48,961 bases of DNA, taken from contig JAUNVB010000008.1 of assembly GCA_030537835.1 (NCBI GenBank), positions 1 through 48,961 of the forward strand. The letters are read 5' to 3'. This DNA comes from Andreesenia angusta (GTDB lineage Bacteria > Bacillota > Clostridia > Tissierellales > Gottschalkiaceae). Positions 5,060 through 23,493 of the stretch are shown here, piece by piece; within the stretch, counting starts at the first letter, position 1, and every line of letters starts with the position of its first letter. The position numbers were made by a program, and so were the translations under genes. The notes below the pieces were generated by a model. The model searched no databases. It was not told the DNA's origin and saw only the letters and a list, made by a program, of their open reading frames with translations.

Positions 5060-6133
5060 ATGTACGAAAAAATATATTCTGAGCTACTTAATAATTTGGA
5101 CAATGGAATACGTTCAATATTAGTAACAGAAGTAGAAATAGAAAATTCTAGAAATAAAATTGTTAATAAAGAGTTATTCTCTCTAGAGGATTTAAAGAAA
5201 GAAAAATTTGATAAGAAGTTTGAGCCCTTAGTTGAAGAATTAAAAAATTCTTTTAACTTAGGAACGCCACAAAAGATTCAAAATAGTGATAAGATGTTCA
5301 TTATAGAACCCTTCTTCCCAAAGCCTAGGGTCGTGATATTTGGTGGAGGACATATTGCAAAACCCTTAGTAGATCTCTGTGTTGATTCGGAGTTTTCCGT
5401 CACTGTAATAGACGATAGGCCTGTTTTTGCAAATACTGGTCGATTCCCTAGAGCAGATGAAGTAATCTGTGATTCTTTCAAATCTTCATTCAATAGAGTT
5501 AATTTGAGAAAAGATGATTTTGTAGTTATAGTAACAAGAGGGCATAAACACGATAATATATGCTTAAGAAACGCACTTGAAGTAGATGGTTTAGCTTTCT
5601 TAGGAATGATAGGCTCTAAAAAAAGAGTACGTGATATGATGAATGAATTAAAAGATGATGGGTATTCTGATCAGCTACTATCAAAAGTAAAATCTCCTAT
5701 AGGACTTGATATAGGTGCAGTAACCCCGTTTGAAATAGCAATATCTATTATAGCCGAATTGATTGAATATAGGCGAAGAAAATCGAATATGGCAAAAGGT
5801 CTTCCTAGAAAATTCAATTGGCCAGAATTTGATAGAGATGTAATCAGTTCTCTTTCAAAAAAAGAGGATATGGATAGAGCTATAATAACTATAACAATGT
5901 CTAAAGGCTCTGTGCCTAGAAAAGCGGGTGCTAAGATGCTCGTATATCCTGATGGAAGAATACTAGGAAGTATTGGTGGAGGTTGTGCTGAAGCTGGAAT
6001 AATAAATACTGCTAGAGATTTAATTAGAGAAAAAGGCTGCATAGAAGAACGAGTGGATATGACTAATGAAGAAGCAGAGAAAAGCGGAATGGCTTGTGGT
6101 GGTATAATAGATGTTTTAATTGAAGCCTTTTAA
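5060..6133 (+). CDS. XdhC family (aldehyde oxidoreductase-type) molybdenum-enzyme maturation factor
   Basis: Accessory protein that handles or sulfurates the molybdenum cofactor for xanthine dehydrogenase/aldehyde oxidoreductase-type enzymes. The 357 residues show a Rossmann domain (about 88-240) with VVIFGGGHIAKP (91-102), VIDDRP (116-121), GMIGSKKR (182-189) and PIGLDIGA (213-220). An XdhC/CoxI module follows at about 272-357: GSVPRKAGAKM (283-293), GSIGGGCAE (303-311) and GMACGG (343-348). This order is the reverse of classical XdhC; the N-terminal 85 residues may be a vestige of the usual first domain. I recall this architecture in clostridial aldehyde oxidoreductase/selenium-dependent hydroxylase clusters. 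No such enzyme is encoded here. GGTGGTG precedes the ATG. Confidence 0.85.
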   Translation: MYEKIYSELLNNLDNGIRSILVTEVEIENSRNKIVNKELFSLEDLKKEKFDKKFEPLVEELKNSFNLGTPQKIQNSDKMFIIEPFFPKPRVVIFGGGHIAKPLVDLCVDSEFSVTVIDDRPVFANTGRFPRADEVICDSFKSSFNRVNLRKDDFVVIVTRGHKHDNICLRNALEVDGLAFLGMIGSKKRVRDMMNELKDDGYSDQLLSKVKSPIGLDIGAVTPFEIAISIIAELIEYRRRKSNMAKGLPRKFNWPEFDRDVISSLSKKEDMDRAIITITMSKGSVPRKAGAKMLVYPDGRILGSIGGGCAEAGIINTARDLIREKGCIEERVDMTNEEAEKSGMACGGIIDVLIEAF

Positions 6134-13450: not shown

Positions 13451-14557
13451 TTAATCTGCTTTCCACTTTATCAGATTCTTTTTTATCTTTCTCTCTAGTA
13501 TACGAAATTGATCCATATTTTTTTCAGTTACAAATGTATAAGCTATTCCTCTATCTCCAGCTCTGCCTGTTCTCCCTATCCTATGAATATAAGTTGTAGT
13601 GTCTTCTGGCATATCATAATTAAATACATGAGTTATTCCTTCTATATCTAACCCTCTAGCAGCTAGATCCGTAGCAATAAGGTATTGCGTCTTCATATCT
13701 CTAAAATTCTTCATAGCCCTTTGTCTCTTTGCTTGAGATAGATCTCCATGTAATTCATCACAATTATATCCTCTTGAACCTAAGTCTAGATTTAATTTCT
13801 TCACTCTATTCTTAGTTCTACAGAATATAATTGCTAAAAAAGGGTTTTCTTCTTCAAATATCTTAATAAGATCAGTTAATTTTTTTCTATCAGTAGTCTC
13901 TACAACTATCTGTCTTATATTTTCAACAGTCACTTGCTTGTCATCTGTAGATATTTCCTTAGGATTTTTCATATAAACTTTTGCCATTCTTTTTACTTCA
14001 TTAGGTATTGTAGCAGAAAACAATAGAGTCTGTCTTCTCTTTGGCGTTCTTTTTATTATGGATTCAGTAAGTCCTAAAAATCCCATATCAAGCATCTGAT
14101 CCGCTTCATCAAGGACTAGGTATTTTATCTTACCTATATCTAAGCTATTTCTATCTAAATGATCGATAAGTCTTCCAGGTGTTCCTACGACAATCTTTGG
14201 CGTCCTTCCTAATTTTCTTATCTGCATAAAAATATCTTGACCACCTAATATTAAAAGACAATCTGTGCTATCTTTTAAAAGTTCTTTTATCTCCTTACTT
14301 ATCTGTGTAGCTAATTCTCTAGTCGGTGTAATTATTAATGCTTGTATATTATTTCTATTCATATCTAAATTCTGAATTATTGGCAATATAAAAGCTAAAG
14401 TCTTTCCTGTTCCTGTCTTTGCCTTCCCTATAATATCCTTTCCAGATAATATCTCAGGGATCGATAGTTTCTGTATTTCGGTTGGTTTTCTTATTCCTTT
14501 TTTCCAAAGTTTATCAGTAAGCTCATCTCTAATTTTTAGTTTTTTAAAATCTGACAT
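13451..14557 (-). CDS. DEAD-box RNA helicase
   Basis: ATP-dependent RNA unwinding protein of the CshA/DbpA/RhlE-like group; short (368 aa), only the two RecA lobes and no C-terminal RNA-binding extension. Motifs in order: Q motif (GIRKPTEIQ), AKTGTGKT, PTRELA, GGQD, TPGRLID, DEAD, SAT, 'IIFCRTK', 'DLAARGLDIEGITHV', HRIGRTGR. An ATG at 14581 is in frame, but AAGAGGTGA lies four bases before the ATG at 14557, which also clears the topB stop codon, so I use 14557. Downstream of topB and probably co-transcribed. Likely roles: ribosome assembly or mRNA decay (inference). Confidence 0.92.
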   Translation of the reverse strand: MSDFKKLKIRDELTDKLWKKGIRKPTEIQKLSIPEILSGKDIIGKAKTGTGKTLAFILPIIQNLDMNRNNIQALIITPTRELATQISKEIKELLKDSTDCLLILGGQDIFMQIRKLGRTPKIVVGTPGRLIDHLDRNSLDIGKIKYLVLDEADQMLDMGFLGLTESIIKRTPKRRQTLLFSATIPNEVKRMAKVYMKNPKEISTDDKQVTVENIRQIVVETTDRKKLTDLIKIFEEENPFLAIIFCRTKNRVKKLNLDLGSRGYNCDELHGDLSQAKRQRAMKNFRDMKTQYLIATDLAARGLDIEGITHVFNYDMPEDTTTYIHRIGRTGRAGDRGIAYTFVTEKNMDQFRILERKIKKNLIKWKAD

Positions 14558-18714: not shown

Positions 18715-19119
18715 ATGCATATAAATATATATATAAATAAAAAAATTAAGGATAAAAATATAAAGAATGCTACTGAAGAATATTTGAAAAGATTATCCAA
18801 ATACTGCAAAATAAAGACCATTAATATCAAGAAAAAAGACAATCTTGAATCTATTTTGAGAGATTCTAAATATTCCATTCTAATTTCAAATAAAGAGAAA
18901 TCAATAAGCTCCGAAGATTTAGCAAAAAATATCTCTTCATTAAATATTAATGGAATTTCTGAACTGAATATTTTTATAGAAACTGATAGTAATTTAATTT
19001 ATGATTCTTCTTTCTGTCTCACTTATTTAAATTTCTCTGAAGAAATCGACTATATGATTCTTCTAGAACAAATATATAGATCATATAGAATTATAAATAA
19101 TGAACCTTATCATAAATAA
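18715..19119 (+). CDS. degenerate RlmH paralogue retaining the catalytic C-terminal tail
   Basis: 134 aa, shorter than RlmH (about 155-159). Homology is plain at both ends: 'ATEEYLKRLSKYCKI' (19-33) matches the family's N-terminal helix, and 'LLEQIYRSYRIINNEPYHK' (116-134) is an almost perfect RlmH C-terminal tail. The middle has lost the enzyme core: the IGGxxGL SAM loop is replaced by 'IETDSNL' (88-94), and the MTFPHQ segment by 'LNFSEEI' (105-111). It therefore cannot bind SAM in the normal way. AGGAAGGT four bases before the ATG and a perfect terminator after the stop argue that it is expressed, not a pseudogene. See the intact-core, tail-less copy at 23050-23493. Confidence 0.8.
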   Translation: MHINIYINKKIKDKNIKNATEEYLKRLSKYCKIKTINIKKKDNLESILRDSKYSILISNKEKSISSEDLAKNISSLNINGISELNIFIETDSNLIYDSSFCLTYLNFSEEIDYMILLEQIYRSYRIINNEPYHK

Positions 19120-23049: not shown

Positions 23050-23493
23050 TTATATTATTATACTAGCGATTTCATATAATAATAAAACTCTCACCATCTG
23101 ATGAGCAAATGTCATATCTGAAAAAGATATCCTTTTATCAGCTTTCGATAAAATATCTTTTGATAATCCAAATGAACCTCCTATTATAAAGACTATATTT
23201 CTATCAATAATATTATCTCTTAATAATCTTTCTAATACTTTTTCATCCGTCTTTTTTCCTTCTATATCCAAAGCTATTATAAAATCATCATGATTTAATT
23301 TTTTAATAATTCTATCTGATTCTTTTTTTAAAATCATTCTCTTTTCTTTATCACTAGGATTATCTATAGTCTTTTCATCATATACTTCCATTACTTCTAT
23401 TTTATATCGCTTATTTATAATGTTTATTTTTTCTTCTATTATTTTTCTAAAATAATCCTCTTTTATCTTTCCAACAGCTATTATTTTGATCAT
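23050..23493 (-). CDS. rlmH: RlmH, 23S rRNA pseudouridine-1915 N3-methyltransferase lacking the C-terminal tail
   Basis: SPOUT methyltransferase of 147 aa; the family methylates Psi1915 of 23S rRNA (helix 69) on assembled ribosomes. N-terminus 'KIIAVGKIKEDYF' and SAM-knot residues IGGSFGL (104-110) and MTFAHQMVRV (127-136) are intact. But the protein ends 'LLLYEIASIII', where relatives continue with EQxYRAxxI...GExYHK, so the catalytic tail is missing. The N-terminal 'EYxKRLxxY' helix motif has also drifted (EKINIINKRY). The other two frames downstream contain no lost tail and a terminator starts two bases later, so this is not a simple frameshift. It is the last gene of the walJ-htrA-CxxH/CxxC-rlmH block. 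Confidence 0.85.
   Translation of the reverse strand: MIKIIAVGKIKEDYFRKIIEEKINIINKRYKIEVMEVYDEKTIDNPSDKEKRMILKKESDRIIKKLNHDDFIIALDIEGKKTDEKVLERLLRDNIIDRNIVFIIGGSFGLSKDILSKADKRISFSDMTFAHQMVRVLLLYEIASIII

Follow-up and report, generated by a model that had tools for sequence, protein, structure and literature searches.

Two rlmH-like genes of Andreesenia angusta, here called L and S, most probably encode the two different subunits of an obligate heterodimeric RlmH, judging from their sequences. Both lie in the window, the whole stretch of 48,961 nucleotides that was analyzed (contig JAUNVB010000008.1). Losses and retentions of functional residues are complementary in the two genes, both genes are under purifying selection, and loss of the L tail accompanies S in 19 of 20 genomes. 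A change of RlmH from identical to different subunits appears to have occurred repeatedly in clostridia-like bacteria and, in at least one case, the element that severed the rlmH tail appears to carry the tail-giving subunit.

RlmH (YbeA/OrfX), the pseudouridine-1915 N3-methyltransferase of 23S rRNA, is a homodimeric SPOUT protein of the same fold and family as L and S. In the E. coli homodimer, SAM is held by one monomer and the catalytic tail comes from the other (PMC5430550, Koh et al. 2017). The accessible portion of that study describes Y152, H153 and R154 as essential and the mutants Y152F, H153F, R154A, E138A and E138Q as inactive. According to the accessible part of a review (PMC9508554), only one of the two sites of each RlmH dimer is thought to work.

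Results

The 3′ end of L

Table 1. Features of L and S, in positions of the window.
Feature	Position	Strand	Basis
L, RlmH of 147 aa; SAM-binding side intact, catalytic C-terminal tail absent	23050..23493	minus	open frame and profile match
Glycine-rich SAM loop GGSFG of L, residues 105-109	23167..23181	minus	aligns with 103-GGPEG-107 of E. coli RlmH
Degenerate L end LLYEIASIII and TAA stop; ordinary RlmH has LLEQIYRA..GEPYHK there	23050..23085	minus	alignment
Terminator-like hairpin, 8 pairs, two bases past TAA	23029..23047	minus	folding and terminator scan
S, RlmH paralogue of 134 aa; tail-side residues intact, SAM loop absent	18715..19119	plus	profile match and alignment
Catalytic tail EPYHK of S, residues 130-134	19102..19116	plus	sequence

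The L frame closes with ...MVRVLLLYEIASIII and a TAA at 23050-23052, and its sequence retains the SAM-binding part (GGSFG, SFSDMTFAHQ). L matched the Pfam profile SPOUT_MTase (PF02590) with 119.4 bits, above the curated cut-off of 27, and the match broke off at profile position 138 of 154. As the protein is RlmH by this score and the match stops there, the loss of the tail is not a chance effect. L scored below all NCBIfam RlmH cut-offs (best model, 138.8 bits versus 172), and the fold was retained in the predicted single-chain structure (pLDDT 93.1). Like genes of homodimeric RlmH, L stands in the neighborhood MBL-fold/HtrA-like/rlmH, which was found in the window and in several relatives.

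A preliminary description of this DNA had read the L end as LLLYEIASIII and TAA, with a hairpin starting two bases on and a TAG one codon further; the peptide, stop and hairpin were correct, but the TAG is the very next codon. The hairpin consists of GGTGGAGA-AAA-TCTCCACC and is followed by ATTTTTAATT. A terminator scan of the 801-base region at the L end yielded three terminator-like sites versus 0.2 expected; two of them are this hairpin, which scores on the plus strand too, and the third lies at 23105-23090 on the minus strand. Being nearly symmetric, the hairpin could serve a plus-strand transcript as well. The 91-nt 3′ end of L gave a folding z of -5.0. No shift of the terminator towards the stop, as suggested there, need be assumed, since hairpin-stop distances are alike in truncated and intact genes: the best hairpin started between 17 bases before and 53 after the stop in truncated L, and between 13 before and 48 after in intact RlmH.

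Reading both other minus-strand frames at the L end revealed no EQxYR or YHK remnant, in agreement with the preliminary description, and a recent frameshift in the window's L was thereby ruled out. That the short end is a sequencing or assembly artifact, for which one could invoke the draft state of the genomes and stops arising from single-base errors, has a negligible probability. Besides the missing remnant, truncated ends were found in the same-genus genome and in 17 others, where the L endings differ from genome to genome; the sister species G554 and G623 share the same short form with a dN/dS of 0.15; and cases on long contigs agree, such as G231 (796-kb contig). For the whole set of truncated L the artifact reading is refuted.

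The view that the loss is old and fixed was borne out by G001, the only other genome of the genus. It does not leave the window as a lone deviating strain, as it has both a tail-less L (ending LILLEQLSKARA before the stop) and a tail-bearing short paralogue. The claim of erosion rather than an indel does not hold as a general rule: the window shows no trace of an indel, but abrupt cuts occur in the relatives G231 and G214. How the window's tail went has left no trace; in relatives the first step, as their sequences suggest, can be an insertion, and erosion of truncated L later extended well past the tail.

The short paralogue S

S lies 3′ of L in convergent orientation, 3.9 kb off, and ends in LLEQIYRSYRIINNEPYHK. 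About 20-25 residues near residues 41-65 are deleted in the alignment. S matched PF02590 with 71.6 bits (cut-off 27) and stayed below the NCBIfam RlmH cut-off (best model, 65.7 bits versus 172). Its predicted single-chain structure retained the fold (pLDDT 91.3), with B. subtilis RlmH (1to0) as the best PDB match (E 2.8e-11). Apart from L and S, the window's genome has no PF02590 match. S would supply exactly what L has lost, a point absent from the preliminary description.

Complementary residues in L and S

The sharing of SAM and tail between E. coli monomers predicts that functional residues are split between L and S. SAM-side and tail-side residue sets were fixed from the accessible portion of PMC5430550 before counting in an alignment of 19 truncated L, 20 S and 76 ordinary RlmH sequences; the ordinary sequence L250, whose predicted end runs past YHK, and the S of G412, which starts at a contig end, were left out. 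Retention over the 14 SAM-side sites that ordinary RlmH conserves was 0.978 in ordinary RlmH, 0.970 in L and 0.386 in S, and over the seven tail-side sites 0.992, 0.391 and 0.993, respectively. SAM-side residues were thus conserved in one paralogue and tail-side residues in the other. Of the 20 S, 19 had all 7 tail-side sites, and each of the 19 L had 12-14 of the 14 SAM-side sites.

The glycine loop GGxxG, GGSFG in L, is missing from S, where G104 and G107 were retained in 0 of 20 sequences. The C-terminal Y-H-K/R tail was present in 20/20 S and in 0/19 truncated L, the window's included. The division reaches beyond these two motifs: R25, R26 and R142, outside the tail, were retained at 0.63, 0.58 and 0.47 in L and at 1.00 in S, and I74 and H129, outside the glycine loop, at 1.00 in L and 0 in S. 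E138 was retained alike in both (0.95), which counts against a complete split. Among 70 positions conserved in ordinary RlmH, retention fell below 0.5 for 9 in L, 23 in S and none in both; with a threshold of 0.7 the numbers were 15, 30 and 1. The dN/dS values of three close species pairs were 0.11-0.18 for L and S alike, indicating purifying selection; two more distant pairs were mostly saturated.

Two relatives showed another change at the tail. G068 and G069 (L162 and L163; genus g19, family f11) have a single divergent RlmH ending in YNK or YDK instead of YHK, which alters a histidine essential in E. coli.

Occurrence of S and of tail loss

Among the four genomes of the window's family, G001 (same genus) and G003 (another genus) have a tail-less L and S, and G002 has one ordinary RlmH. 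The window's order (249 genomes) was searched with PF02590 and with an S profile. RlmH exceeded the cut-off in 231 genomes and its tail could be judged in 229, the RlmH of G171 and G240 being contig-end fragments; tails were judged by where the profile match ends, and some were read residue by residue. The RlmH of a named Peptoniphilus, compared in order to anchor the order, reached at most 61% identity. Intact S was found in five genomes, in four of which (G000, G001, G003 and G231) the tail of L is gone; in the fifth, G205, S stands next to an L with an intact tail. Without intact S, the tail was lost in 1 of 224 genomes. This one is G214, whose rlmH ends ...GEPL-TAG with a serine recombinase directly behind and in which no S was found; it counts against the heterodimer. 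A broken S accompanies an intact rlmH in G004. In G206, of the genus of G205, the first ~45 residues of rlmH are joined out of frame to the tail (L158:5392-5617); the middle is missing, and no other copy was found in this 98% complete genome.

Fisher's test of intact S versus tail loss in the order gave 2.2e-7 with kinship ignored, and the association is inflated by shared ancestry. Only three independent pairs lay on starred branches, of which 2.5 on average went in the expected direction, and the sign test on these three was not significant (p 0.25 at best).

Searches with the S profile added at least eight further S genomes from a class sample (391 genomes) and at least six from a phylum sample (398 genomes), samples that overlap in part with each other and with the order. 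S was picked there by score and short length among the matches listed, which may have passed over weaker S; loss of the tail in the absence of S was counted in the order only. The family of G316 (6 genomes) yielded two more. Among the at least 21 S genomes, L was found in 20, and its tail is absent in 19 of the 20; in G412, S begins at the contig end and the assembly has no L.

Seventeen of the 20 L-S pairs share a contig, and in every one of these S is located 3′ of L. The genes are adjacent in tandem in G316, G390, G605, G622, G664 and G1003 and adjacent and convergent in G869, G901, G994 and G647, and are 4-46 kb apart in the remaining same-contig pairs. In G994 and G869 the convergent genes overlap by 10 bases (L276:5752-5761 and L277:6047-6056), and the last codons and stop of S, read in antisense, form the end of L.

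PF02590 was absent even at E 0.1 in 15 of the 249 order genomes. RlmH is thus dispensable in some relatives, and a dead remnant pair is conceivable, the more so as each copy lacks residues essential in E. coli (accessible part of PMC5430550). It is nevertheless very unlikely that L and S are both decaying relics and that m3-pseudouridine 1915 was given up: the low dN/dS of both genes, the near-complete site sets counted above, losses that hardly overlap and the recurrence across many families all speak against it. Also unlikely is a new job of S, for example as an RNA-binding or regulatory homodimer, with L using another tail donor or none. G205 shows that S can occur without a lost tail to replace, and the interface residue I74 is gone from S, both as a new job would allow. 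S retains, however, the active-site residues of a partner monomer, needless for a general RNA binder; no RlmH-like gene besides L and S turned up in the window's genome; and tail loss from L accompanies S.

Tree of RlmH and S

In a quick tree of about 150 columns with long branches, S formed one clade (SH-aLRT 99) and truncated L was scattered: the L of G231 grouped with the intact RlmH of G237 (88), that of G003 with the intact RlmH of G002 (97) and that of G664 with the intact RlmH of G739 (93). A single clade of truncated L was rejected (AU p = 0.0105). One kind of S therefore seems to have met many RlmH, with the tail lost many times. The presence of S with intact L in G205, and of broken S with intact L in G004, suggests that tail loss can follow the arrival of S.

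Integrative elements at the rlmH 3′ end

In G231, an integrated serine-recombinase element of 12.8 kb (L148:5318-18136, with junctions at 5318 and 18136) lies inside the last codons of rlmH, and at the element's left end the gene stops with ...KGEP-TGA. A large serine recombinase (PF07508/PF00239, L148:5399-7555) adjoins the rlmH 3′ end and is followed by a resolvase, a C5 methylase with a HaeIII-type nuclease, other genes and then S. Behind S lies the severed tail, GAACCG|TACCATAAGTAA, 12.8 kb from the rlmH stop. The junctions bear the inverted arms ACTGAATACAT and ATGCATTCAGT, and the tail was not regenerated on insertion.

Recombinases 66% identical to that of G231 are found in G301 and G581, also at rlmH. 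Their element arm, TATCATCGCTAA, re-encodes the tail as YHR, whereas the element of G231 leaves the tail severed and carries S. Neither the stretches at rlmH nor the S profile revealed a second RlmH in G301 and G581. Related elements thus either rebuild the tail in cis or, in the case of G231, come with S. In G328, the truncated L ends in nearly the G231 arm (TGATTTACTGAATACATGACTCC) and S is 13.6 kb away; no recombinase was found near this L. G205 has both a YHR tail and S. In G004, the broken S (L159:2562-2991) is accompanied by attachment-arm-like sequence, with TACCATAAGTGA about 300 bases on, and the S fragment closely resembles the S of G328, a distant genome, which suggests transfer. 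A relative of the G231 recombinase in G515 (L291:17874) has a tail-less arm and stands next to a frame resembling an ABC transporter rather than at rlmH, and its genome yielded no S.

The accessible part of PMC6222049 describes the rlmH 3′ end as a hotspot, occupied by SCCmec in staphylococci and by ECC in enterococci. The G231 element resembles these in its site, its large serine recombinase, its att sites and its variable cargo.

PYHK-stop motifs 3′ of S in G003, G001 and G554, which resemble right junctions, were rejected as proof of an element, as such motifs occur elsewhere too. A control set of 80 loci from named genomes (1.10 Mb) held 20 of them away from any rlmH-like context; the majority were YGEPYHK-stop in the orientation of rlmH, and L076 and L077 each had a row of four. 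A displaced-tail remnant by itself is therefore not specific to S. The control motifs look like att repeats at the rlmH hotspot. (Y)GEPYHK-stop recurs 3′ of rlmH, in the orientation of the gene, in L045, L049, L057, L063, L065, L076 and L077 (Clostridia and relatives); as many as four copies follow one another at spacings of 1-2 kb, as if an array of SCC-like elements had inserted at rlmH. Only G231, with both junctions and matching arms, is taken as evidence for the element, and the traces in G003, G001, G554 and G004 are suggestive.

Plasmids and phages yielded 12 plasmid and 19 phage records with matches, and among the matches listed all were full-length RlmH and none S; viral contigs yielded one locus, an ordinary RlmH, not S. 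No element or att remnant was found next to the window's L or S and no displaced tail in the window, whose single arm-like match, at 14058, is away from both genes. As no element is left there, we infer rather than observe an element origin for this genome.

Discussion

In the proposed heterodimer, L would bind SAM with its knot and present the SAM-side monomer's surface. S, which would have given up SAM binding, would set its tail (E138, R142, Y152, H153 and K154, E. coli numbering) over the SAM of L and add a basic patch, R25/R26. The single composite active site of the L:S pair would presumably still methylate pseudouridine 1915 of 23S rRNA, and the homodimers L:L, without a tail, and S:S, without SAM, would be inactive. 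A dimer with exactly one complete site would match the one working site per RlmH dimer considered in the accessible part of PMC9508554. Three of the four hydrophobic interface residues named in the accessible part of PMC5430550 are altered in S (I74 lost, L122 and L127 changed), and the L:S interface would accordingly have to differ.

L and S would share with homodimeric RlmH a composite active site, to which one monomer brings SAM and its partner the tail, as described in part in PMC5430550 and predicted here from sequence. Unlike homodimeric RlmH, they would be two different, complementary subunits, both below the NCBIfam cut-offs and each without about half of the functional residues.

SPOUT heterodimers are already known from trypanosome mitoribosomes: T. 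brucei mt-LAF5/mt-LAF6 are, like the proposed L:S, heterodimeric SPOUT proteins on large-subunit rRNA (PMC12123411, PMC8316566). They differ in that they are not RlmH but assembly factors of the mitoribosome that act at the A-loop (H92), and the accessible portions of the two papers mention no link to mobile elements. No report of a heterodimeric RlmH was found in the open-access literature, subscription literature lying mostly outside the search.

TRM6 and TRM61 are paralogues, one of which is unable to bind SAM, and the enzyme they form is not a SPOUT enzyme. It is the tRNA m1A58 methyltransferase (PMC5007650, accessible part), which resembles the proposed L:S in having two subunits.

The history of S is evenly balanced in our estimation between other origins and a beginning as an element-borne rescue gene that gave the tail in trans, the pair then being domesticated many times while the element decayed. 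S-bearing elements would insert in the last codons of rlmH. Where sister elements rebuild the severed tail from the attachment arm, these would provide it in trans, on an RlmH subunit blind to SAM, and this subunit would heterodimerize with the truncated host enzyme. With repeated domestication of the pair and decay of the element, the host enzyme would stay permanently heterodimeric. Because the rlmH 3′ end is an SCC-type hotspot, an element replacing the severed tail in trans would represent a new way to pay for insertion.

If the heterodimer proposal is true, these bacteria hold a natural heterodimer in which each chain lacks its unused half, confirming the asymmetry of RlmH by evolution, and a ready-made system for mapping cis- and trans-acting residues on the ribosome. 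It would also account for the short, odd RlmH proteins in annotation, and a gene named rlmH in such genomes may not function alone.
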